Origin: Rhodocyclales bacterium
GTDB lineage: Bacteria > Pseudomonadota > Gammaproteobacteria > Burkholderiales > Rhodocyclaceae
Length of the DNA: 37,183 nucleotides
Reading direction: 5' to 3'
Assembly: GCA_016214175.1 (NCBI GenBank)
Contig: JACRPB010000124.1
Span: forward strand, 1-37,183
Part shown: positions 14,205-28,412 of the stretch, in pieces
How positions within the stretch are numbered: the stretch's first letter is position 1
Layout of the letters: each line of letters starts with the position of its first letter
Made by a program: the position numbers and the translations under genes
Notes under the pieces: generated by a model
What the model was told of the DNA's origin: nothing
The model's database searches: none
Seen by the model: the letters and a program-made list of their open reading frames with translations, nothing else

Positions 14205-14318
14205 ATTCGGTATTGCCGCGACGGCGTCTACGCGGAACTTGCTGCGCCGCGCCGATGTCAGCAGAAGGCAGGGCTCGACGAGAGCGGCGCCGATAACGAC
14301 TAACGACAAGGTGAGACC

Positions 14319-16553
14319 ATGAGACTTTCCCTGCGTTTCGTATTGCCCTTGCTGCTGGTCCTGGCCGCCTTCGCCTACGCCATGGTGCCGCTGGTCGATC
14401 AATTCACGCTGCGCTGGTTCGTGCGCGACCTCGACATCCGCGCCAACTTGATCGCCAACACGGTCCAGGAACCGCTCCAGGAACAACTGGCCGCCGGGTC
14501 GCGCGCCAAGACGATCAACTTCTTCAACCGCATCACCCAGGACGAGCGCGTGTACGCCGTCGGCTACTGCGCGTCGACCGACAGCAGGCCCCTGGCCTCC
14601 CGCACCCTGCCCGCGGAAATCCTCTGTTCCGATCTCGACCGCTGGCAGGCGCCGGGCGAGCACCTGCTGCACAGCACGCAGGGGCCGCTGCACGTTGCCG
14701 TCAAACCGCTCGCCAGCGAAGCCGCGCCGGCGGGGCAGCTCGTGCTGGTGCACGACATGAGCTTCGTCGCACGCCGCAGCGAGGAGACCAAGCGCTATGT
14801 CTTCTACGTTTTCATGGGCATCGCCGCCGTGGTCTCGATGATCACGGTGATCATCGCCCAGGTCTCCTGGCGCGGCTGGGTCGCCGGCATGCGCGCGCTG
14901 CTGCGCGGCGAAGGTCTGTTGCGCCAGCCGGTACCGCAAACCGCTTCGCCCGAGTTCCGTCCCATCGCCCGCGACTTGCAGCGCCTGGTGCGCGAACTGG
15001 AGGCCGACTACCGCTCGCGCGACGAAAGCCAGATGACCTGGACGCCGGAGACCCTGCGCGCCATCCTCCACTCCGAGCTCGCCGGCGAAGACGTGATCGT
15101 GGTCTCCAACCGCGAGCCCTACATCCACCAGCGCCAGGGCGAGCGCATCGAGGTGCAGCGCCCGGCCTCGGGTCTCGTGACCGCCCTGGAGCCGATCATG
15201 CGCGCCTGCTCGGGCACCTGGATCGCCCACGGCAGCGGCTCGGCCGACCGCGAGGTCGTCGACCGCCACGACCGCGTCGGCGTGCCGCCCGAGAAGAACG
15301 CCTACCAGTTGCGTCGCGTCTGGCTGACGCCCGACGAGGAATCCGGCTACTACTACGGCTTTTCCAACGAGGGTCTCTGGCCGCTGTGCCACATCGCCCA
15401 CGTGCGCCCGATCTTCCGCTCCGGCGACTGGAGCCACTATGTCGCCGTCAACCGCAAATTCGCCGACGCCGTGGTGGCGGAAGCGAAGACGCGCGCCCCC
15501 ATCGTGCTGGTGCAGGACTACCACCTGGCGCTGCTGCCGCGCTTGATCCGCGAGCGCCTGCCCGCGGCCACGGTCATTACCTTCTGGCACATCCCCTGGC
15601 CGAATCCCGAATCCTTCGCCATCTGCCCCTGGCGCGACGAGATCGTCGCCGGTCTCCTGGGCAGCAGCATCCTCGGCTTCCACACCCAGTTCCACTGCAA
15701 CAACTTCGTCGACACCGTGGATCGCTTTCTCGAAGCGCGCGTGGATCGCGAGAGCTTCACCGTCACCCTCGGCGGCAAGGCCACCGCGGTGCGCCGCTAC
15801 CCGATTTCCATCGCCTGGCCGCCCGACGCGGAAATGGTCGGCAAGCCGGTCGAGCAGTGCCGCGCCGAGATCCGTCAGGCCAACGGCCTGCCGGCGGACA
15901 TCGCCATCGGCGTCGGCGTAGACCGGCTCGATTACACCAAGGGCATCCTCGAACGCTTTCGCGCCGTCGAGCGCCTGCTGGAACTCAACCCGGAATGGAT
16001 CGGCCGTTTCTGCTTCGTCCAGATCGCCGCACCGAGCCGCTCGCGCATCGAGGAGTATCAGGACCACGAGGCTCGCGTGCGCGCTGCCGCGATACGCATC
16101 AACGAGCGCTTCGGCCGCGGCGGCCGCGACAGCGCGCCGCCCATTCTGCTCAAGGTGCAGCATCACGAGCCGCAGCAGGTGTACGAGTATTACCGCGCCG
16201 CCGCACTCGGCTTCGTCAGCAGCCTCCACGACGCCATGAACCTGGTGGCCAAGGAGTTGCTCGCCTCGCGCGACGACGAACGCGGCGTACTGATTCTCTC
16301 CGAGTTCACCGGCGCCGCGCGCGAATTGCCCGAAGCGCTGATCGTCAATCCCTACGACGCCGACCAGTGCGCCGCCGCCCTGCATCTGGCGCTGACCATG
16401 GCACCGGCCGAGCAGCGCGACCGCATGCGCCTGATGCGCGGCCTCGTCGGCGAGTTCAACGTCTACCGCTGGGCCGGCCGCATGCTGCTCGACGCCGCGC
16501 TGATGCGCCGGCGCGGGCGTCTGCTGGAAAAACCGGCGACCCGCAAAGCGTAG
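14319..16553 (+). CDS. otsA: GT20 alpha,alpha-trehalose-phosphate synthase with N-terminal two-TM sensor-like module
   Basis: Catalytic part: [112 protein letters not shown]. The N-terminal ~255 aa contain two TMs flanking an extracytoplasmic segment. Confidence 0.88.
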
Positions 16554-16561
16554 GAAATTCG

Positions 16562-17311
16562 ATGATCGCCGCACACCGTCAGCCACCGCCGCCGCGCCTG
16601 GAATGGGCGTACTTTCTCGACGTCGACGGCACGCTGATCGACATCGCCGCGACGCCGGATGCGGCGCGCGTGGATCTGCCGTTGCTGGCCCTGGTGCAGC
16701 AACTCCACCGCGCCAGCGACGGCGCCCTGGCGCTGGTCAGCGGCCGGACCCTGGCCGACCTGGAGCGGCGCCTCGGCGGTCTCGCCGTCCCCGTCGCCGG
16801 CCAGCACGGCATGGAGCGGCGCGACGCGAACGGCGACCTGCACTGCCACGGCGCCGCAGCGCCGGCTACGCGCGACATCCGCGTGCGCCTGGCCCCCGTT
16901 CTTGCGCGCCATCCCGACCTGCTGCTGGAAGACAAGGGATTGTCGCTGGCCTTGCACTATCGCCAGGCGCCGCAGCTCGCCGGCTACGTGCACCGGCTGC
17001 TGGGCAAGCTGGTGAGTGAAGCGGGAGACGGCCTGCTTCTGCAACGCGGCAAGCGTGTGCTGGAAGTCAAGCCGGCCGGCTGCGACAAGGGCACGGCCAT
17101 TGAGGACTACCTGGGCGAGATGCCCTTTCGCGGCCGGCGGCCGGTGTTCATCGGCGACGACGTCACCGACGAGCACGGCTTTGAAGTCGTGAATCGCCTG
17201 GACGGCATCTCGATCAAGGTCGGCGCCGGACGCAGTTGCGCCCGCTACCGGCTGACGGACGTCGGCACGGTCAGACAATGGCTGGCCGCCGCCATCGGAG
17301 AACACGCATGA
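16562..17311 (+). CDS. otsB: trehalose-6-phosphate phosphatase (HAD superfamily)
   Basis: FLDVDGTLIDIAATPDAARVD, LVSGRTLADLE, GQHGMERRD, VLEVKPAGCDKGTAIEDYL, VFIGDDVTDEHGFEVVN. Confidence 0.93.
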   Translation: MIAAHRQPPPPRLEWAYFLDVDGTLIDIAATPDAARVDLPLLALVQQLHRASDGALALVSGRTLADLERRLGGLAVPVAGQHGMERRDANGDLHCHGAAAPATRDIRVRLAPVLARHPDLLLEDKGLSLALHYRQAPQLAGYVHRLLGKLVSEAGDGLLLQRGKRVLEVKPAGCDKGTAIEDYLGEMPFRGRRPVFIGDDVTDEHGFEVVNRLDGISIKVGAGRSCARYRLTDVGTVRQWLAAAIGEHA

Positions 17312-19095
17312 ACAATCTGGACCTGGCCCTGATCGGCAACTGCACCGTCGGCGCCCTCGTGGACGCCCGCGCCGACATCGTCTGGAGCTGCTTTCCGCGC
17401 TTCGACGGCGATCCGGTGTTCTGCAGCCTGCTGCGCGAAGAACGCGGCGCCGACGACGCCGGCTTCTTCCGCCTCGAACTTGCCGACTTCGAGCGCGCCG
17501 AGCAGCACTACCTGGAGAACACCGCCATCCTCGTCACGCGGCTTTACGACCGTCACGGCGGCGCCGTCGAAATCACCGATTTCGCGCCGCGTTTCGGCCA
17601 GTACGGACGCATGTTCCGGCCCGTGATGCTGGTGCGCCAGGCGCGGCGTCTCGCCGGCAGCCCGCGCCTCACGGTGCGCCTGCGCCCGGCCTGCGACTAC
17701 GGCACCGGCCGTCCGACCGTGACCTGGGGCAGCCACCATATCCGCTACGTCGCTCCCGCATTGACGCTGCGGCTCACCACCAACGCCTCGATCACCGCCA
17801 TCCTCCAGGAGACGACCTTCTTTCTCGAAGACACGGTGACCCTGCTCCTGGGCCCCGACGAGACCGTGCCGGAAGGCGCCGGCGAAGTCGGGCGCCGCTT
17901 CTTCGATGAGACCGCTCTCTACTGGCGCGAGTGGGTGCGCTTCCTCGGCATTCCCTACGAGTGGCAGGACGCGGTGATCCGCGCCGCCATCACGCTCAAG
18001 CTCAACGCCTACGACGACAGCGGCGCCGTCATCGCCGCCATGACGACCTCGATCCCCGAGGCCGCCGGCAGCACGCGCAACTGGGACTACCGCTATTGCT
18101 GGCTGCGCGACGGCTATTTCGTCGTCAACGCCCTCAATCGCCTCGGCGCGACGCGCACCATGGAGCGCTATCTCGGCTACATCGTCAATACCGCGGCGAC
18201 CGCCGCCGACGGCCCGCTGCAACCCGTCTATGGCATCGACGGCCGCGCCGAACTGCCGGAGCGCGAAGTGGCGGCCCTGCCCGGCTACCGCGGCATGGGC
18301 CCGGTGCGCGTCGGCAACCAGGCCTACCGTCAGGTGCAGCACGACGTGTACGGGTCCACGGTCCTCGCTGCGACTCACATATTCTTCGACCGGCGTCTCA
18401 CCCGCCGCGGCGACGAAGCCTTGTTCCATCGGCTCGAACCGCTGGGCGAAAAGGCGGTGGCCTGCTTCGACCAGCCCGATGCCGGCCTCTGGGAGCTGCG
18501 CGGCGCGGCGCGCGTGCACACCTTCTCGGCCGTCATGTGCTGGGCCGCCTGCGACCGTCTGGCGCGCATCGCCGGCCACCTTGGACTCACCGGCCGCGCC
18601 GACTACTGGTGGCTCCACGTCCGGCGCCTGCACGCCGCCATCGTCGCGCGCGCCTGGAACCCTGCGCGCAACGCCTTCGTCGCCACCTTCGACGGCGCGA
18701 CGATGGACGCGAGCCTCTTGCTGCTGGCCGAGGTCGGCTTCCTCGACGCCGCCGACCCGCGCTTCGCCGCCACCGTCGCCGCCGTCGAACAGGATCTGAA
18801 ACGCGGCGACTTCATTTTCCGCTACGTCGAAAGGGACGACTTCGGCGAGCCCGAGAACGCCTTCCTGGTCTGCACCTTCTGGTACGTGAATGCGCTGGCG
18901 TCCGTGGGCCGGCGCGACGAGGCGCGGGCGCTGTTCGAGCGTCTGCTCGCCTGCCGCAATCGCCACGGCCTGCTCGCCGAGCACATCGACCCGAAGAGCG
19001 GCGAGCAGTGGGGCAACTTCGTCCAGACCTACAGCATGGTCGGCCTCATCAACGCCGCCATCCGTTTGTCGGTGAGGTGGGATCAGGCGTTCTGA
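17308..19095 (+). CDS. glycoside hydrolase family 15 (glucoamylase/trehalase-like)
   Basis: MNNLDLALIGNCTVGALVDARADIVWSCFPRFDGDPVFCSLL, GSTRNWDYRYCWLRDGYFVVNALNRLG, EHIDPKSGEQWGNFVQTYSMVGLINAAIRLS. ATGA overlap with otsB. Confidence 0.92.
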   Translation: MNNLDLALIGNCTVGALVDARADIVWSCFPRFDGDPVFCSLLREERGADDAGFFRLELADFERAEQHYLENTAILVTRLYDRHGGAVEITDFAPRFGQYGRMFRPVMLVRQARRLAGSPRLTVRLRPACDYGTGRPTVTWGSHHIRYVAPALTLRLTTNASITAILQETTFFLEDTVTLLLGPDETVPEGAGEVGRRFFDETALYWREWVRFLGIPYEWQDAVIRAAITLKLNAYDDSGAVIAAMTTSIPEAAGSTRNWDYRYCWLRDGYFVVNALNRLGATRTMERYLGYIVNTAATAADGPLQPVYGIDGRAELPEREVAALPGYRGMGPVRVGNQAYRQVQHDVYGSTVLAATHIFFDRRLTRRGDEALFHRLEPLGEKAVACFDQPDAGLWELRGAARVHTFSAVMCWAACDRLARIAGHLGLTGRADYWWLHVRRLHAAIVARAWNPARNAFVATFDGATMDASLLLLAEVGFLDAADPRFAATVAAVEQDLKRGDFIFRYVERDDFGEPENAFLVCTFWYVNALASVGRRDEARALFERLLACRNRHGLLAEHIDPKSGEQWGNFVQTYSMVGLINAAIRLSVRWDQAF

Positions 19096-19097
19096 CG

Positions 19098-19973
19098 ATG
19101 GATGGACTGCTCGACCGCTTCCTCGCCTGGCTGCCCGAGAATCTGGAGCGCCCGGCGCGCATCCTGCTGATCCTGGCGCTGGCGGGGTTCGCACTGCGGC
19201 TGATCCACCGCTTCATCCCCAAGCTGCGCGACGCCATTGCGGCGCGTCAGGGCAGCCGCGAAGACAGCCAACGGGTACTGACGCTCTCGCGCGTCGTGCG
19301 CTATGGGCTCACCGTGGCGACGACCGTGATCACCGGCCTGCTGATCCTCGGCGAATTCGGCATCTCGGTGGCGCCCATTCTCGGCGCCGCCGGCGTGGTC
19401 GGCATCGCCGTCGGCTTCGGCGCGCAGAGCCTGGTCAAGGATTACTTCACCGGCTTCTTCCTGCTGCTGGAAAACCAGATCCGCATCGGCGACGTCGTCG
19501 AAGCCGGCGGCAAGGCCGGCCTCGTGGAGGAACTGACGCTGCGCTACCTGCGCCTGCGCGACTACTCGGGCAACGTTCACTACATCCCCAACGGCAACAT
19601 CTCCGTGGTCACCAACATGAGCCTGGGCCACGCCTACGCGGTCATCGACGCCGACGTGGCCTACGGCGAGGACATCGACCGCGTGGAAGCCGTGATGCGC
19701 AGCGTCGGCGACGGCATGCGCCGGGACAATGTCTTTTCCGCCAAGATCCTCGAAGACCTGGAAATCGCCGGCGTGGACCAATGGGCCGATTCGGCCATCG
19801 TCATCCGCTGCCGCTTCAAGGTCCAGCCGCTGGAACAGTGGAACGTGCGCCGCGAATACCTGCGCCGGCTCAAGCAGGCCTTCGACCGCGAAGGCATCGA
19901 GATTCCCTACCAGCACATCCAGGTGGTCTACGACGCGCCGAAGAAAAATGGGAGCGCAGATGGAAACGCTTAG
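19098..19973 (+). CDS. mscS: MscS-family small-conductance mechanosensitive channel
   Basis: VAPILGAAGVVGIAVGFGAQSLVKDYFTGFFLLLENQIRIGDVVEAGGKAGLVEELTLRYLRLRDYSGNVHYIPNGNI. Confidence 0.93.
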   Translation: MDGLLDRFLAWLPENLERPARILLILALAGFALRLIHRFIPKLRDAIAARQGSREDSQRVLTLSRVVRYGLTVATTVITGLLILGEFGISVAPILGAAGVVGIAVGFGAQSLVKDYFTGFFLLLENQIRIGDVVEAGGKAGLVEELTLRYLRLRDYSGNVHYIPNGNISVVTNMSLGHAYAVIDADVAYGEDIDRVEAVMRSVGDGMRRDNVFSAKILEDLEIAGVDQWADSAIVIRCRFKVQPLEQWNVRREYLRRLKQAFDREGIEIPYQHIQVVYDAPKKNGSADGNA

Positions 19974-21387
19974 TTCGCGCATGCACGACATCGCCTGGCC
20001 CTTCGCCCCGGCGGACGCGGCGTTGCGGCGCCTCCGGGCCGGCGCGGCGCGCATGCTGCCGGGCTGCGTGCTGCTGGCCCTGCCGCTGTCCGCGTTCGCC
20101 GCGGGCAGCGCAGTGGTGGGCGAGAACCTGCTCTGGCTCGCCATCATCCTCATGGCGGCGCGGCTGTTCGCGCCGCTGGCGACGCGCGTCGGCGTGCCCG
20201 CCGTGCTGGGCGAGCTCCTGCTGGGGGTGGTACTGGGCAACCTCGGCCTGGCCGGGCTGCACTATTTCGAGAGCATTCCGGCCGACCCCATCATCGCCTT
20301 CATCGCCGAACTCGGCGTCATCGTGCTGCTGCTGCAGATCGGCCTGGAAACGCGCATCAAGGAGCTGGTCCAGGTCGGCGGCAGCGCCATGCTGGTCGGC
20401 AGCGGCGGCATCGTCGCACCCTTCGTGCTCGGCGCCTTCGTCGCCGGCCCGCTGCTGCTGCCGGGCATGGAGCGCAACGCCTACCTGTTCCTCGGCGCCA
20501 CCCTGGCCGCCACCTCGGTGGGCATCACCGGGCGCGTGTTCCGCGACCTGGGCAAGCTCGGCACGCCGGCCGCGCGCATCGTGCTCGGCGCCGCGGTGAT
20601 CGACGACGTGCTGGGGCTGGTGATCCTGGCCGCGGTCTCCAGCCTGGTCGAGTCCGGCAGCGTCGGCCTGGGCGAAGTCGGCTGGATCGTCGGCAAGGCC
20701 GTGCTGTTCCTCGGCGGCAGCATCTGGCTCGGTCGCATGATTGCGCCGCATTCCAGCCGCTGGCTGGCGCAGATCGACGCCGGCCCCTCGATGCTGTTCG
20801 CCCAGGTGTTGGCCGCCGGCCTGGCGCTGGCCTGGCTGGCCCAGGTCATGGGGCTGGCGCCGATCATCGGCGCCTTCGCCGCCGGCCTGCTGTTCGAGCC
20901 GGTATTCCTCAAGGACTTCGAGACCCCACGCATCGTGCGCGAAATCGAGCCGCTGATGCGCGATCCGCAAAGCCGTGGTCTCATCCAGGAACTGATGCCC
21001 ATCCTGGTCCGCCATACACGGCACCAGCACGAGCACATGATCGAGCCGATCGGCTACTTCTTCGTACCCGTGTTCTTCGTGCTGACCGGCATGCAGGTCG
21101 ACCTGCGCACGCTGGCCGATCCGGCCACGCTGGGTGTGGCGCTGGGACTCACCGCGGCCGCCATCGCCGGCAAGCTGGTCGCCGGCGTCTTCGCCCGCCA
21201 GGCCGGTGGGTGGATCGTCGGCTGGGGCATGGTGCCGCGCGGCGAGGTGGGCCTTATATTCGCCATGGTCGGCCGGCAACTGGGCGTCATCGACGAATCC
21301 CTGTTCTCGGTGCTCGTGATCATGGTCATCCTGACCACGCTGATCACGCCGCCGGTGCTCACCTGGCTGCTGAAGCGGCAGCCGTGA
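19960..21387 (+). CDS. cation:proton antiporter, CPA2-like (Na+/H+ or K+/H+)
   Basis: VGVPAVLGELLLGVVLGNLGL...AELGVIVLLLQIGLETRIKEL...LGAAVIDDVLGLVIL...PIGYFFVPVFFVLTGMQVDL...GWGMVPRGEVGLIFA. Start ATG at 19960 overlaps the mscS 3' end. Confidence 0.9.
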   Translation: METLSSRMHDIAWPFAPADAALRRLRAGAARMLPGCVLLALPLSAFAAGSAVVGENLLWLAIILMAARLFAPLATRVGVPAVLGELLLGVVLGNLGLAGLHYFESIPADPIIAFIAELGVIVLLLQIGLETRIKELVQVGGSAMLVGSGGIVAPFVLGAFVAGPLLLPGMERNAYLFLGATLAATSVGITGRVFRDLGKLGTPAARIVLGAAVIDDVLGLVILAAVSSLVESGSVGLGEVGWIVGKAVLFLGGSIWLGRMIAPHSSRWLAQIDAGPSMLFAQVLAAGLALAWLAQVMGLAPIIGAFAAGLLFEPVFLKDFETPRIVREIEPLMRDPQSRGLIQELMPILVRHTRHQHEHMIEPIGYFFVPVFFVLTGMQVDLRTLADPATLGVALGLTAAAIAGKLVAGVFARQAGGWIVGWGMVPRGEVGLIFAMVGRQLGVIDESLFSVLVIMVILTTLITPPVLTWLLKRQP

Positions 21388-21417: not shown

Positions 21418-23115
21418 ATGGGCAAGCTGCTGCAAACCGCGCTGCGCTGGACGCTGCGGCGCTTGGTCTGGTTCATGCTGATCGCCGCCATCCTGGCGGC
21501 GGGCAACGCGCTGCGGCAAGAGTTCGCGCAATTCGAGCTCCTCATCGAAGAACTGGCGATCCTGCGCAGCGGCGACCAGGAGCTCGACCGCCAGCGGCGC
21601 ACGATCGCGGCCGCCGCGGCCGAGCGCGTGCAGGCGCTGGAGAACGCGTCGCAGGAGCGCCTGACAGCGCGCGTGGCCGCGCTCGAACGCGAGCTCGAGC
21701 AGGAGCGCGCCAGCCTGCACGGGCAGGGCGTCGTCGGCCTGCTCGCCACGCCCATCGGCGCCGGGCTCGTCGAGCGCTTGAAGCAGGACCTGGCGATCGC
21801 CGTTCTCGAACAGGAACGCGACCATCTCCAGCGCCTCATCCGCTATGCCGATGCGCTGCGCGACAGCCGCGCGGCGCAGGCCAGGCTGGAAGCGCTGCGC
21901 CTGGCCCACGTTGCCGCCTATGCCGCGCTGGCGCAAGCCGAGCGCGAGTTGGCCGCCGCCGACGGCAGCAGCCTGTGGCGCGGCCGCTGGCTCTTCTGGT
22001 CGCCGGAATTCGCCGCCCGGCAGCGCCTGGAGCAAGCGCGCGCCGCGCAGGCGGCCGGCAACCAGGCGGCCTTCGAGCGCTACGAAGCGCAGCGCCGGCT
22101 GGTGGCCGGCCTGGCGCTGCCGGGGCTGCCCCGGTTTGAAATTCCGCCGCAGCGCCTCGACGCGGTGCTGCAGCCGCTGCGCCAGGCGCTGCGCCAGCGC
22201 GAGGAGCGCTACCGCGCCAACTGGGTCAGCCAGGCCGCCGGGCCGGTGATCGCGGTACTGCCCGCCGCCGCGCTGATCCTGCTGTTCGTCGTGCTGGTTC
22301 CCGTCGCGCTCAAGGCCGCGCTCTACTTCCTCGTCGCGCCGCTGGCCGCGCGCCTGCCCACCGTCCGCCTGATACCGCAGGCCGCGGCAATGCCGGTCCG
22401 GCAAGACGCCGACACGAAGATCTCTGCGGTGTCGCTACCGCTGGTGATCGGCCGGGGCCAGCAACTGCTGATCCATCCCGAGTATCTACAAAGTTCCTCG
22501 GTGCAGGGCAAGCAGGCCACCCAGTGGCTGCTCGACTGGTCGTATCCGCTCAGCAGCCTGGCCGCCGGCCTGTTCGCGCTGACCCGGATTCGCTGCGACA
22601 GCGCAGCGTCATTCGTGATCTCGGCCACCCGCGACCCCTTGAGCGAGGTCGGCATCGTTGCCCTGCCGGACGGGGCCGCGCTGGTGTTGCAGCCGCGCGC
22701 GCTGGTCGGCGTGGTAATGCAGGACGGCCGGCCGCTACGCATCTCGCGGCACTGGCGGCTGGGCAGCCTGCATGCCTGGCTGACGCTGCAACTGCGCTAT
22801 CTGGTGTTTCACGGTCCGGCCGAGCTGATCGTCACCGGCTGTCGCGGCATACGGCTCGAAGCGGCGGGCAGCGGGCGCAGCATCAACCAGGCGGCGACAC
22901 TCGGCTTCAGCGCCAACATCGACTACGCCACGCGCCGCTGCGCAACCTTCGGCGCCTACCTGATGGGCCAGGACGAGTTGTTCAACGACTGTTTCAGCGG
23001 CGACGGCGGCTGCTACGTCTACGAGGAAATGCCCGATCGCGGCCGGCGGCCGGGCATCACCGGGCGCGGCATCGAGGGCATCGCCGATTCGCTGCTGCGC
23101 GTTTTCGGCATCTGA
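21418..23115 (+). CDS. uncharacterised membrane protein: TM - coiled coil - TM - C-terminal AIM24-like beta domain
   Basis: N-terminal TM LVWFMLIAAILAAGNAL. Long Glu/Arg/Ala heptad region. Second TM VIAVLPAAALILLFVVLVPVALKAALYFLV. C-terminal segment ...INQAATLGFSANIDYATRRCATFGAYLMGQDELFNDCFSGDGGCYVYEEMP resembles AIM24 family ends by eye. Confidence 0.7.
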   Translation: MGKLLQTALRWTLRRLVWFMLIAAILAAGNALRQEFAQFELLIEELAILRSGDQELDRQRRTIAAAAAERVQALENASQERLTARVAALERELEQERASLHGQGVVGLLATPIGAGLVERLKQDLAIAVLEQERDHLQRLIRYADALRDSRAAQARLEALRLAHVAAYAALAQAERELAAADGSSLWRGRWLFWSPEFAARQRLEQARAAQAAGNQAAFERYEAQRRLVAGLALPGLPRFEIPPQRLDAVLQPLRQALRQREERYRANWVSQAAGPVIAVLPAAALILLFVVLVPVALKAALYFLVAPLAARLPTVRLIPQAAAMPVRQDADTKISAVSLPLVIGRGQQLLIHPEYLQSSSVQGKQATQWLLDWSYPLSSLAAGLFALTRIRCDSAASFVISATRDPLSEVGIVALPDGAALVLQPRALVGVVMQDGRPLRISRHWRLGSLHAWLTLQLRYLVFHGPAELIVTGCRGIRLEAAGSGRSINQAATLGFSANIDYATRRCATFGAYLMGQDELFNDCFSGDGGCYVYEEMPDRGRRPGITGRGIEGIADSLLRVFGI

Positions 23116-23118
23116 GGT

Positions 23119-26100
23119 TCAGTCGAAGCTGAAGCTGTAGAACACGTCGATCGCGCTGTCCGCGCCGGCGCGGGTGACCACGGAAATGCGCGGCGTCAGC
23201 GCATGGGTCAGCTTCAGCGCCGCCGTCGCGGCGCTCAGGCCCTGCTCGTAGCTGAGGTGGGTACGCGCCGACAGGCGCTTGCCGACGGTGAGTATCTGGC
23301 TGGCGAGGGTTTCGCCGCCGCTGGCTTGGCGCAGCCCGAACTCGTCGACGCCGATGGCGCGCGCCAATTGCTCGCCGGCGCCGTCCTGGCCCAGGAAGCT
23401 ACCAGCGGCGGCCAGCAGCAGCGAGGCGTCGGTGCCGGCGGCATCTGGCGCGCGTCCCAGAACGATCCACGACAGCTTTTCGGCATCCGGCACCAGCGGC
23501 GTCGAAACCAGGCGCACCACCGGCCGTTGCAGCGTGCCGCCGACGGCGACGCCGGCCTCGACCGCGCCGCCCTTGCGCAGCGCCAGCACATTCAGGCCGG
23601 GGTCGTCGAGCGCGCCCTGGAAGTTCACGATGCCGCGTTCGACCACAAGCTTCTGGCCGTAGGCCTCGAAAGTGCCGTCGCGCGTGGCGATGCTGCCGCT
23701 GGCGGCGAGCGGCGCCGCCCCCGCGCCGCCACCGCTGCGCAGCCGCAGTTGGCCGACCAGGCGCGCCGCCAGGCCGGCGGCACGCACGTGAAAGCGCTCG
23801 CCCAGATCGAGCACGATGTCGGCCGCGATAGGCGCCCCGCGCTGCGCCGGCGCTGCCCGGCCGCGCACGACGATGTCGCCGGCCAGCGTGGGACGGCCCG
23901 GCGCCGCGGCGGCGACGAGGCCGGCGTCGGCGACGAGCCGGGCGGCAAGATTCAGGCTACCGTCCCGGTAGTCCAGTTGCGCCGTGCCCGAAGCCACCAG
24001 CCAGCGATCCGGCTGCTGGGACAGCGGCAGGCGGACCAGCGTGGCGTCCAGATGCGCCTGGCGCCGCTGCAGATCGAGTTCGCCGCTGACGGCCAGGCGC
24101 CCCGGTTCGGCTGGCGCGGCAAAGCCCGCCAGGCGTGCGGCGCGGCCGGGCGGATCGTGCCGGGCGACGAAATCGAGGCGTTCCACTACCGCGCGCGCGC
24201 CGTCGAAGCGGATGACCAGCGTGCCCTCGCGCAGGTGCAGGTTCTGATCGATCAGGCCGAGCGCAAGGCCGCTGCCGCGCACCGACCCGTGCAGGCGGGG
24301 TGCGGCGATGCTGCCGGACACCGCGGCATCGATAGCGAGCGCGCCGGCGCTGCTGAGGTTGCCGTCGATGGCCGGGCCGAGCCCGCTCAGGTCGGGCACG
24401 CTCGCCCGCAAGTGGCCGGCGAGACTACCGTCCGTCTGGCCGGCCAGCGCCCAGTCGCCGTCGGCAAGGGCCGGCGCCGCGCGTTTGTCCGCGGCGCCGT
24501 TCAGGCGCAACGCGAGGGCGCTGAAACGGCCGCGGCTGGACCAGCGCTGCGGCGTCCACGTCGTCTCGGCCAGCTCCACGCGCCCGGCGGCGAGCGCCAG
24601 CACGCCTGCCCCGAGAACGAGCTCGCGCCGGCTCGCCGCAAGTTTCATCGGGGCGAGCAGCAGGACAGGCCAATCGCCCGTCACACTGAAGCGCTCCAGC
24701 GTGCCGCGCCAGGCGGTATCGCGCCAGTCCTGCGCCGCTTCGATCAGCCGGCCCGTTGCCGTCAGTTCGACGCCGCGCCCGGCCGGCAAGTCCGCCGTGG
24801 CGTGCAGCCGGTGCTGCGCCCGCGTGCCGGCGACCGTCAGTTCCGCGCGCGCCAGTTGCGGCCCCTCCGGCCGGCTCAGCGTTTCCGCCGTCAGCTTGAG
24901 CGAGAGCATTTCGCCTTGCAGCGAGGCCGCTGCGTCGAGCCGCGCGATGCGATCGCCGCCGGCCAGGACGAGCTTGCGGCCATGCACATCGAGAACGAGC
25001 TGCGGCTGCGCCGAAAAACCGCTGACGACCGCCGTCAGGTCGAGCGCTCCGGCCAGTCCCGGCAGCCACCGCCGATGCTGCGCGAGATCGGGCGCAGTGA
25101 GCTTCAGGCTGAGCCGTTCGGCGCGGCTGCCCCAGCCCCCTTGCACGCTCAGGCGGCTGGCGCCGAGCTGCAGCGCCAGCGCACCGTTCAACTGCGCCGC
25201 GCCGCCGGCGGCCAGCAGATCGTCCAGCAAATGCGCGGCGTCGCGGGCGGTGAAGGCCACATCGCCGTTGCCGGCCAGCGCCTGGCCGGCGTAGCGGCTG
25301 GCGCCGAGCACGAAGCGCAGCCGGCCGGCGAGGCGCGGCGCCAGCTCACCGGCGGTGTCGAAGCTGGCGTTGAGGTCCGCCGGCGGCAGCGCAGCGATGG
25401 CGGCCGGGTCGACATGCCGCAGCCGGCCGGCAAAGCGCCAGGCGCGCGCGGCATCGAGGCGCAGCTCGCCGCTGCCGGCCAGTTCGGCGCGGCCCTGCGT
25501 CAGCGTCAGGCCGTCGACGCGCAGCCGGCGCGGTACGCCGTCCCCATCGACCGTCAACGCGGCGGCGACGCGGGAAAACGGCAAGCCGCCCCGGTCCAGC
25601 GCGGCCGGCGCGGCGTTGGCGGCGCGCAGGCCGCCCGCCAGCGCACCGGCCGCGTTGCGCGCCAGATCGAGCTCCAGCGTCAACACGGCATGCGGCCCGT
25701 CCAGGTCCAGCGCAATGGCGTCGAGCGTACCCGCGGCGCGCGCCTTCACGCGCAGCGCCGGGGGGCCGGCGGCGGCAAGTTCCGCGGTGGCCGCCAGCGC
25801 GAAGGGCGCGACGGCGTCCAGCGTCCCTTGCCCCGTCAAGGTGCCGGCGCCGAGCCGCAGCGACAGCGCCGCGATCCGGTGCAGCTTGCCGTCGCTGGCC
25901 AAGACGGCGCGCAACTCGCTGGCCAGCGGGCGCGTCGCGCCGGCCGCGCCCTCGCGCACGTCGATGCGGCCGATTTCCAGCATCCCTACGCGCACCGCCA
26001 ACGGCAGTTGCAAGTCCTCGGGCGGCGCCGCCGCCGCGGCCGCGGCCAAGGTCAGATCGATGCGGCCGACGTGCAGCGCGTCGATCGCCAGTACGCCGTC

Positions 26101-26397
26101 GACCAGCGCCCGCGGCGTCCAGCGCAGAGCGACGTCGTGGGCGCTGTAGCGGGCGGCGCCGGCCGCGATGTCGACGCGCGCCAGCGTCAGCGGCCCGACC
26201 AGCCGCCCGCGCGCGCCTTCGATGCGCACCGCATCGTTGCTGAGCCGCGCCAGCGTGGCGGCGGCCCACGTCAGGCCCGACTCGGCGCACAGCAGCCAGG
26301 CGGCGGCGCCGGCCGCCGTCAGCAACAGCGAGACCAGGGTCGCCAGCAGCGCGCGCCCGATGCGGCGCAGCGGGCGCTTGCCGCGGTCGAGCACCAT
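23119..26397 (-). CDS. tamB: translocation and assembly module subunit TamB (inner-membrane AsmA-like/DUF490)
   Basis: N-terminal TM RRIGRALLATLVSLLLTAAGAAAWLL. Long repetitive beta-rich body. C-terminal ...TFEAYGQKLVVERGIVNFQGALDDPGLNVLALRKGGAVEAGVAVGGTLQRPVVRLVSTPLVPDAEKLSWIVLGR...LSYEQGLSAATAALKLTHALTPRISVVTRAG is diagnostic. Confidence 0.94.
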   Translation of the reverse strand: MVLDRGKRPLRRIGRALLATLVSLLLTAAGAAAWLLCAESGLTWAAATLARLSNDAVRIEGARGRLVGPLTLARVDIAAGAARYSAHDVALRWTPRALVDGVLAIDALHVGRIDLTLAAAAAAAPPEDLQLPLAVRVGMLEIGRIDVREGAAGATRPLASELRAVLASDGKLHRIAALSLRLGAGTLTGQGTLDAVAPFALAATAELAAAGPPALRVKARAAGTLDAIALDLDGPHAVLTLELDLARNAAGALAGGLRAANAAPAALDRGGLPFSRVAAALTVDGDGVPRRLRVDGLTLTQGRAELAGSGELRLDAARAWRFAGRLRHVDPAAIAALPPADLNASFDTAGELAPRLAGRLRFVLGASRYAGQALAGNGDVAFTARDAAHLLDDLLAAGGAAQLNGALALQLGASRLSVQGGWGSRAERLSLKLTAPDLAQHRRWLPGLAGALDLTAVVSGFSAQPQLVLDVHGRKLVLAGGDRIARLDAAASLQGEMLSLKLTAETLSRPEGPQLARAELTVAGTRAQHRLHATADLPAGRGVELTATGRLIEAAQDWRDTAWRGTLERFSVTGDWPVLLLAPMKLAASRRELVLGAGVLALAAGRVELAETTWTPQRWSSRGRFSALALRLNGAADKRAAPALADGDWALAGQTDGSLAGHLRASVPDLSGLGPAIDGNLSSAGALAIDAAVSGSIAAPRLHGSVRGSGLALGLIDQNLHLREGTLVIRFDGARAVVERLDFVARHDPPGRAARLAGFAAPAEPGRLAVSGELDLQRRQAHLDATLVRLPLSQQPDRWLVASGTAQLDYRDGSLNLAARLVADAGLVAAAAPGRPTLAGDIVVRGRAAPAQRGAPIAADIVLDLGERFHVRAAGLAARLVGQLRLRSGGGAGAAPLAASGSIATRDGTFEAYGQKLVVERGIVNFQGALDDPGLNVLALRKGGAVEAGVAVGGTLQRPVVRLVSTPLVPDAEKLSWIVLGRAPDAAGTDASLLLAAAGSFLGQDGAGEQLARAIGVDEFGLRQASGGETLASQILTVGKRLSARTHLSYEQGLSAATAALKLTHALTPRISVVTRAGADSAIDVFYSFSFD

Positions 26398-28157
26398 CAG
26401 AACGCCACCATCAGCGCGAAATGCAAGTGCCAGCGGCCGCCGCGCGTGCCGCGCGCAAGGTCGAGCGCGAGCGGGCCGACGGGGCTCTTCCAGCGCGCAC
26501 CCGCGCCGACGCCGGCGGCCGGCTTGATTTCCCGCCAGGAATCGGCGGCGTCGCCGGCATCGACGAAGAACGCGGCCCCCCACGGCCCGTCGAGCCAGTG
26601 CGTGTATTCGAGCGCCCCGGCGAGCAGCGCCCGGCCGCCGACGACGGCATTGCCCGCGCGCACGCCGAGACTCTGATAGGCGTAGCCGCGCACCGACTGC
26701 GCGCCGCCGGCGCGAAACAGGTAGTCCTGCGGAATGCCGCTGCGCGCCACAGCCGCCGTGTAACCCGCCTCGCCGCGCAGCATCAGGCTGTCGGCCGCGC
26801 CGAGTGGCCACCACTGCTGCACGCGCAGGTGGCTGCGCACGAAGTCGCGATCGGAAAGCAGGCGCTGCGCCGCGCCGCCCAGGCGCAGCTCGACGACATT
26901 GCCGCGGCGGGGATTGAGCGCATCGTCGGCCGCCCGGCGTATCCAGCGCCAGTCGAGCGTCAAGGCGCGCTTGCGCTCGGCGGCGGCGCCCGCGGTGCGC
27001 AGCTCCTCGCGCTGCCATTCGAGACCGAGCCGCGTCTCGATGCGTCCGGCGTTACGGCTGCGCGCCACGCCGAGCACCTGGCGCGTGCTGACCAGGCCCT
27101 GGATGTCGCTGGTCTCCAACTGGGCGCCGAAGGAAGGGCGATAGCCGCGCGCGTCGGCCAACAGCCCCAGCTCGGCCGACAGCGACTGGCGCCTTTCCTC
27201 CAGCCGCAGCCCGCTGTTCAAGTCCCAGGCGCGCCCGAGAAAGTCGTGGTGGCGATAGTTGAACTCGCCGCGGGCGCCGCTGTTGGTGCCATAACCCAGG
27301 CCGAAGCCGACGCGCTGCGCCGGCGCCTCGGCCAGCGTCACCCGTACCGGAATGGTTTCGGCGGCGGCGGTCGGCACGGCCTCGATCGTCACCGCACCGA
27401 ACCAGGGACTGTTTTGCAGGCGCGACTGGAACTCGAGCAAGGCGGCGCGGCGGTAGGGTTCGCCGGGGGCAAACGGGGCCAGCCCCGCGACCAGCGCCGC
27501 GTCGTAGCGCCGCAAGCCGGTGATGGCGAGCGCGCCGAAGCGATAGGCGGGACCGGAATCGAGCGTCACCGCGAGCTGGACCTCGGCGCGCTCGGGATCG
27601 ACATCGGCGCGGCTGGAGACGATGCGCGCGGCCGCATGGTCGGTGGCCGCCGCGTCGGCGAGCAGCGCGGCCTTGGCGGCCTGCCAGTCGGCCGAGCGGA
27701 AAGCCGCCCCGGCCTTGAGCGACCAGGCCGCGCGCAGGCGTTCGCGACGCTCGGCCATCTCGCCTTCTGCGGCGGCGAGATCGCCGAGAAACTCGATGTC
27801 GATGCGCGCGACGCGGGTGAGCGGCCCCGGCGCCACGACGATCGCCAACGCCTCCGCGGCATCGGCACGAGCATCGATCTGCGGCGAGAAATAGCCTTCG
27901 GTCGCCAGCAACTCGGCCGCCTCGCGGCGCGCACGGCGCACCAGCGCCGCGCCGGCGTCGGCGTCGACGAGCGTGGCGGGCAGGTCCAGATGCCGCAGCA
28001 GGAAGCTGCGCTGCGACTCGGGGGCCATCAGGATCAAGTCCCGGCTTCTGGTATCGACAGTCACGTCGCTTGCCGTCCATGCCGGAACGCCGGACAGAAC
28101 GGTCCAGCAGGCAAGAACCCGGCACGCGCTTGAGATGGGCTTGGTGATCGTCGCCAA
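26397..28157 (-). CDS. tamA: TamA/BamA-family outer-membrane assembly factor
   Basis: POTRA-like repeats then Omp85 barrel: GFGLGYGTNSGARGEFNYRHHDFLGRAWDLNSGLRL, RAGGAQSVRGYAYQSLGV, GGRALLAGALEYTHWL, WHLHFALMVAF*. A TTG start at 28157 gives a plausible signal peptide MATITKPISSACRVLACWTVLSGVPAWTA. Stop overlaps the tamB ATG. Confidence 0.9.
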   Translation of the reverse strand: MATITKPISSACRVLACWTVLSGVPAWTASDVTVDTRSRDLILMAPESQRSFLLRHLDLPATLVDADAGAALVRRARREAAELLATEGYFSPQIDARADAAEALAIVVAPGPLTRVARIDIEFLGDLAAAEGEMAERRERLRAAWSLKAGAAFRSADWQAAKAALLADAAATDHAAARIVSSRADVDPERAEVQLAVTLDSGPAYRFGALAITGLRRYDAALVAGLAPFAPGEPYRRAALLEFQSRLQNSPWFGAVTIEAVPTAAAETIPVRVTLAEAPAQRVGFGLGYGTNSGARGEFNYRHHDFLGRAWDLNSGLRLEERRQSLSAELGLLADARGYRPSFGAQLETSDIQGLVSTRQVLGVARSRNAGRIETRLGLEWQREELRTAGAAAERKRALTLDWRWIRRAADDALNPRRGNVVELRLGGAAQRLLSDRDFVRSHLRVQQWWPLGAADSLMLRGEAGYTAAVARSGIPQDYLFRAGGAQSVRGYAYQSLGVRAGNAVVGGRALLAGALEYTHWLDGPWGAAFFVDAGDAADSWREIKPAAGVGAGARWKSPVGPLALDLARGTRGGRWHLHFALMVAF

Positions 28158-28412
28158 TCGCTCAGACCTGGCTGGCCAACTATCGCGTGGCGTCGATCGT
28201 TCGCTTGCACGCCGCCTCGTTCGCCATCGGGATGGCAAGCGCGATGGCTGGACGCACGGATATTCTCCGCAGCGGCTGGGCGCGAAGCATCGCCCGACAG
28301 GCCGCGCGACGCAGCAGCCAAGCGACGACGACTGACCGCTTTGACGTACGCGCCGAGGAACTCACGCCCGAAGCGGTCGCCATGCTGCCGTCGTCGCCCG
28401 CCAAGGCCGCAT

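Follow-up and report, generated by a model that had tools for sequence, protein, structure and literature searches.

A trehalose-6-phosphate synthase with a receptor-like membrane N-terminus in a Rhodocyclales bacterium and its relatives

Introduction

The described trehalose-6-phosphate synthases (TPS) closest to the protein analysed here are soluble GT20 enzymes that start at the GT-B domain, such as OtsA of Escherichia coli, OtsA of M. thermoresistibile (5JIJ) and Tps1 of Candida albicans (5HUV). Accounts of osmotic trehalose control in bacteria usually invoke transcription, or regulation of the enzyme by intracellular ions and metabolites. On the sensory side, the closest described proteins are the Cache/PDC receptors, including the histidine kinases WalK, CitA and DctB and Cache receptors with cyclase outputs, in which a transmembrane (TM) segment, a single Cache-fold domain, a second TM segment and a helical linker precede a cytoplasmic enzyme. 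A survey of Cache proteins, whose search started out from proteins that have known signalling outputs, reported such outputs in all of them except the SMP_2 family (Upadhyay et al. 2016, PMC4822843).

Two further systems resemble the present locus in part. In Thermoproteus tenax the msc-gt-tpsp operon likewise unites a mechanosensitive channel gene with trehalose synthesis genes, an arrangement called unique to Thermoproteales, and the TPS activity needs a partner, the co-expressed GT; however, the T. tenax TPSP is reported to be a TPS-TPP fusion, and no membrane sensor is described for it (PMC3634074). The report on Arthrobacter A3 OtsA also proposes a link from osmotic stress to the cell response, but it presents the enzyme as a self-assembling morphogenetic protein and not as a transmembrane receptor (PMC5685639).

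Here we analyse a 37,183-nt stretch of DNA from a Rhodocyclales bacterium (the window). The TPS encoded in it shares the GT20 fold, the substrate residues and the clustering with TPP with the soluble enzymes, but 257 aa of TM-sensor-TM-linker sequence come first. It has the domain order of the Cache/PDC receptors; unlike theirs, its output is a metabolic biosynthetic enzyme. In the open-licence literature searched for membrane-, HAMP-, Cache- or periplasm-linked TPS, we recognised no paper describing this architecture. The receptor-like TPS family is real and apparently undescribed; the sensor fold and the enzyme are each known, and it is their combination that is apparently new.

Results and Discussion

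Layout and topology of the window TPS

The TPS gene (14319-16553; forward strand, as are all features below unless stated otherwise) encodes 744 aa from an ATG start and is preceded by the ribosome-binding-like stretch AAGGTGAG at 14308-14315. The coordinates and sequences given for the N-terminus in the first-pass annotation proved right. That annotation had described two TM segments enclosing an extracytoplasmic part of about 130 aa, all ahead of the GT20 domain. This order was borne out: in the N-terminal 262 aa only two segments exceed a Kyte-Doolittle hydropathy of 1.6 in 19-residue windows, aa ~1-31 and ~159-186, and they flank ~130 aa. TM1 (aa ~7-28, 14337-14402, with MRLSLR ahead of it) falls within a continuous AlphaFold2 (AF2) helix of aa 2-59, and TM2 (aa ~159-183, 14793-14867) within a helix of aa 148-195. 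The domain between them spans aa ~29-158 (14403-14792); behind TM2 a helical linker leads into an intact GT20 domain.

The position of aa 29-158 between two hydrophobic segments suggests that this domain is extracytoplasmic. UDP-glucose and glucose-6-phosphate are cytosolic substrates, so GT20 would lie inside and the domain between the TM segments outside. The positive-inside rule gives an unclean picture, with R/K on both sides of both TM segments. The presence of TM2 further along and the cytosolic location of the substrates ruled out a signal peptide and a secreted enzyme. A Pfam match to Adeno_E3B (E 0.01) was taken as noise from TM composition.

The catalytic domain

The GT20 domain (15090-16487) matches PF00982 over aa 258-723 (375 bits against a cut-off of 32.5, E 7e-112, profile positions 2-468 of 473). 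The best match among solved structures is M. thermoresistibile OtsA 5JIJ (E 2e-78), and the identity to E. coli OtsA is 34% in our alignment. In C. albicans Tps1 the residues Y89, D143, H171, R280, K285, R318, D379 and E387 bind UDP-glucose and glucose-6-phosphate (PMC5527307). All are present in the window TPS, as Y345, D400, H424, R536, K541, R574, D638 and E646, together with R265 of the SNR motif, and these residues, R265 included, are invariant in 86 aligned proteins.

At the same time, the protein stays below two NCBIfam cut-offs, scoring 379 bits against 565 for the OtsA equivalog (TIGR02400) and 449 against 634 for the TPS/TPP fusion model. By the first of these scores, it belongs among the relatives of GT20 TPS but not to the OtsA equivalog as curated. 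The low scores would also suit an enzyme that makes another product, for instance glucosylglycerol-phosphate, or a non-catalytic sensor of T6P or UDP-glucose. We consider this highly improbable: every UDP-glucose and glucose-6-phosphate residue is present, TPP starts 8 nt downstream, and the glucosylglycerol-phosphate synthase model scores lower still (257 bits), by which that particular identity was ruled out. The window is contig 77 of a fragmented host assembly, which comprises 368 contigs at 81% completeness and yielded this TPS as its only GT20 gene.

A separate observation concerns the donor-loop motif D-G-M-N at aa 638-640 (16230-16238), in which Gly occupies the middle position in 85 of the 86 aligned proteins and the window protein has Ala639 instead. 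This may reflect an error in the assembly, a polymorphism of the strain or a variant with altered kinetics.

Spread of the N-terminal module

Of 61 genomes searched, 13 apart from that of the query have the N-terminal module. Twelve of these relatives align nearly end to end, at 27-76% identity and with the TM-loop-TM and linker layout throughout; the thirteenth (L015) matches in the linker only. A pattern-limited scan of species-representative contigs, with matches confirmed by tblastn, gave 420 confirmed relatives, of which 80 were retained. The relatives come from Rhodocyclales/Burkholderiales-type Betaproteobacteria (Pseudomonadota), Geothrix and another member of the Acidobacteriota, Gemmatimonadota, and Myxococcota, to which the relatives labelled "Deltaproteobacteria" belong by taxonomy lookup. 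Named strains are among the carriers (Sulfurisoma sediminicola, Geothrix fuzhouensis, Propionivibrio soli). Plasmids yielded nothing that matches the N-terminus.

The first-pass annotation had named a non-conserved, filler-like N-terminus as a finding that would overturn its reading. The data go the other way: with 420 relatives and full-length conservation down to ~25% identity, across genomes and phyla, the N-terminus is not filler, and the recurrence of one layout from genome to genome rules out a chance origin as well. Neither is it universal. A sample of 321 genomes from the class contained 40 near-full-length GT20 matches, of which 12 (query included) carry an N-terminus of this type, one of them without TM2, so that the module marks a subfamily. 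Outside the class, a phylum sample contributed a further three complete modules and a reduced form (L132).

Two subtypes were distinguished. Type A, which includes the window protein, has two cysteines in the extracytoplasmic domain, whereas type B (L096, L097, L099, L102, L103 and L126) lacks cysteines in that domain and has the sequence ERPL..LA.WMRRLR behind TM2. In a tree built from the GT20 part only, all sensor-bearing proteins and three reduced ones form one clade, apart from the soluble OtsA/Tps1 enzymes (support 100/100), and type B is a subclade within it (SH-aLRT 98). Rebuilding the tree without L111, whose branch is very long, left the sensor clade intact.

Fold of the extracytoplasmic domain

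The AF2 model of the N-terminus, built with 71 sequences, has a mean pLDDT of 80 and ~90 over the extracytoplasmic part; the isolated domain was modelled with pLDDT 86 and pTM 0.79. In a Foldseek comparison with the PDB, nearly all of the best 39 matches of the isolated domain were extracytoplasmic sensor domains. WalK extracellular domains came first (4ywz, E 1.7e-3, probability 1.00, TM-scores 0.68/0.62), followed by KinD, CitA (1p0z, 0.56/0.57), DctB, Mlp24, CusS and a LapD orthologue, all Cache/PDC sensors or close relatives of them. The single stronger E-value (9a5d, 6.8e-7) belongs to an integrative deep-learning model of WalK, and the fold assignment therefore rests on the crystal structures instead. 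The model shows a long N-terminal helix and a central antiparallel sheet, the hallmarks of Cache domains, and matches solved ones. Thus, by structure prediction the domain belongs to the Cache/PDC sensor fold.

A Cache- or CHASE-type fold had been suggested as something that HMM searches might detect. The Cache fold was recovered by AF2 and Foldseek, but the sequence models did not detect it in type A. No Pfam Cache-family HMM scored above its curated cut-off on the window protein or the other type-A members scanned; a type-B member reached E 2e-5 with dCache_1, with 24.7 bits, under the cut-off of 45; and the CHASE models were without significant match (one member of the 13 reached E 0.016 with CHASE4). 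Searching PDB sequences with the N-terminus, as one sequence or as a profile, gave nothing beyond designed helical proteins and further chance matches, so the assignment comes from structure comparison only.

Exactly two cysteines occur in the extracytoplasmic stretch, Cys84 (14568-14570) and Cys103 (14625-14627), in fixed columns of all 71 aligned type-A sequences. The pair probably forms a disulfide, and its fixation fits the oxidising periplasm. The same invariance, which persists even in type-A members only 25% identical overall, would suit a redox sensor in which C84-C103 forms and breaks with the redox state of the envelope and so switches the TPS. Such a switch seems improbable to us, given that type B has the same architecture without either cysteine and that structural disulfides are common in periplasmic domains. 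The extracytoplasmic domain is also less conserved than the enzyme (mean identity of the aligned relatives to the window protein 0.63, versus 0.79 for GT20); such a difference could arise from a ligand pocket that diverges fast, but equally from an anchor under loose constraint.

The linker and the resemblance to true receptors

Behind TM2 the AF2 model places a helix (aa 184-195), a loop (196-210) and a second helix (211-232), encoded at 14868-15014, with a pLDDT of ~45 in the connector. W187 in the first helix is invariant across both subtypes. Directly before GT20 lies a further helix (aa 238-257, 15030-15089) with the pattern W-[ST]-x-x-x-L-[RK], here called the Trp helix; its W241 is invariant and retained even in sensorless relatives. 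The linker had been called HAMP-like. The helix-connector-helix topology after TM2 agrees with that description, but PF00672 (HAMP) does not match the window protein, and the best value among the relatives scanned was E 0.11. Profile-profile comparison with HAMP domains of the same genome gave E 0.0035 (probability 9%) for type B and E 0.06 (0.9%) for type A. The linker thus appears to be HAMP-like in layout only.

When 299 genomes of the phylum were searched with the family profile, one long non-GT20 protein, L131 (genome G626), was found at E < 1e-5. By Pfam it is a hybrid histidine kinase (PAS-HisKA-HATPase-REC), and the match lies in its N-terminus (E 3e-6, with ~0.001 chance occurrences expected in 299 genomes). 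In hhalign the TPS family and L131 align over 205 columns, from TM1 through the Cache domain and TM2 into the linker (probability 91, E 1.1e-6). A weaker match, L178, covers the TM2 region only (E 2e-4, ~0.07 chance occurrences expected in 369 genomes) and reads by eye as a HAMP-containing cyclase. The receptor-like anatomy proposed at first reading therefore stands with regard to the two TM segments, the Cache fold, the helix-connector-helix linker, the similarity to the input half of a kinase and the conservation; the HAMP label is supported by topology only. As a side observation, L131 may point to the kind of protein that supplied the input module of the TPS.

Reduced relatives and the anchor alternative

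Three reductions are found at separate points inside type A of the GT20 tree. L015 (G019) retains a two-TM hairpin and has no Cache domain, L132 (G603) retains a single TM segment, and L100 (also L173, G273:C53) has TM1 and the periplasmic domain without TM2. In L100 the enzyme would be stranded outside the membrane unless TM1 stays uninserted; its genome also carries a complete type-B copy (L099, L160). The simplest history is a single gain of the sensor followed by occasional loss. All three proteins keep at least one TM segment and the Trp helix directly before GT20. Having lost the sensor or TM2 while apparently retaining the enzyme, they suggest that gating is dispensable in some lineages.

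These relatives bear on the strongest rival explanation, that of a plain membrane anchor. The N-terminus would then serve as an anchor and oligomerisation module without gating. It would keep the TPS at the inner membrane, perhaps close to MscS and transporters, with the Cache fold as an inherited, non-sensing scaffold. The retention of a TM segment and the Trp helix in proteins without the Cache domain or TM2 speaks for this reading, and MscS genes do lie near TPS in some loci. Moreover, the extracellular domain of WalK, the nearest fold neighbour, is not known to have a settled small-molecule ligand. Against this, the conservation of fold-specific residues, linker and Trp helix across phyla exceeds the needs of an anchor, most members retain the complete sensor, and the profile matches input modules of real receptors. 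We therefore regard a mere anchor as unlikely, though less so than the other alternatives considered. L015 and L132 are natural anchor-only controls, and with L100 they form a set of natural sensor-loss controls; together with the size of the family and the named strains, they make the idea directly testable.

Gene neighbourhood and proposed mechanism

The TPS gene heads an operon with TPP (16562-17311; PF02358, E 5e-34, and TIGR00685 above cut-off), a GH15 family protein of trehalase-like/glucoamylase-like type (17308-19095; PF00723, E 3e-50) that overlaps TPP by 4 nt, an MscS-type mechanosensitive channel (19098-19973; PF00924, PF21082, PF21088) and a CPA2 cation:proton antiporter (19960-21387; PF00999, E 1e-59). 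The genes from 16562 to 21387 are separated by gaps of 2-8 nt or overlap by 4-14 nt. Of the 80 related loci, many of them cut by contig ends, 68 have TPP, 51 have GH15 and 13 have MscS; type-B loci also have GH15 and TPP. The nearest NCBIfam model of the GH15 protein is the archaeal trehalase TreH1, below cut-off, and its place beside TPS and TPP would unite the making of trehalose with its possible breakdown in the same operon. Two OmpA-family proteins (PF00691; 13282-13701 and 13701-14204) lie upstream of TPS; an OmpA match occurs in 5 of the 80 loci, and this pair is rarely kept.

We put the probability that the protein is an inner-membrane TPS driven by a receptor-type input module at about 0.6. 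In this model the N-terminus would lie in the cytoplasm and the Cache/PDC domain, with one disulfide (C84-C103), in the periplasm; TM2 would bring the chain back, and the juxtamembrane helix with W187, the connector, the second helix and the Trp helix with W241 would couple the sensor to the cytosolic GT20 domain of a protein that is probably a dimer. A periplasmic or membrane cue (a ligand, the ionic or osmotic state, the redox state or wall stress) would cause a conformational change that passes through TM2 and the linker and turns T6P synthesis up or down. Judging from the neighbouring genes for ions and solutes, our first guess is a cue of osmotic, ionic or wall-stress type. TPP, the GH15 enzyme, MscS and the antiporter would then serve the trehalose and ion sides of osmotic adjustment.

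With the input half of a receptor on a TPS, a single molecule would allow the envelope to set the level of solute synthesis, bypassing gene expression. For the wider proposal we see about even odds: that a class of transmembrane receptors in at least four phyla has compatible-solute synthesis as its output, rather than phosphorylation or a second messenger, and that a periplasmic Cache domain sets T6P and trehalose levels allosterically, without changes in gene expression. The range of Cache sensors would thereby grow beyond signalling outputs to include a metabolic enzyme, and an extracellular signal may then directly control the production of a protective sugar in the window bacterium and hundreds of relatives.

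Two further observations concern the DNA beyond the antiporter. Directly downstream and on the same strand, 21418-23115 encodes a 565-aa protein with a coiled-coil-like N-terminal half that matches no Pfam model at E 0.5 or below and no NCBIfam model at E 0.01 or below. The minus strand from 23119 to 28238 carries TamB and Omp85-family (TamA-like) genes of an ordinary kind.
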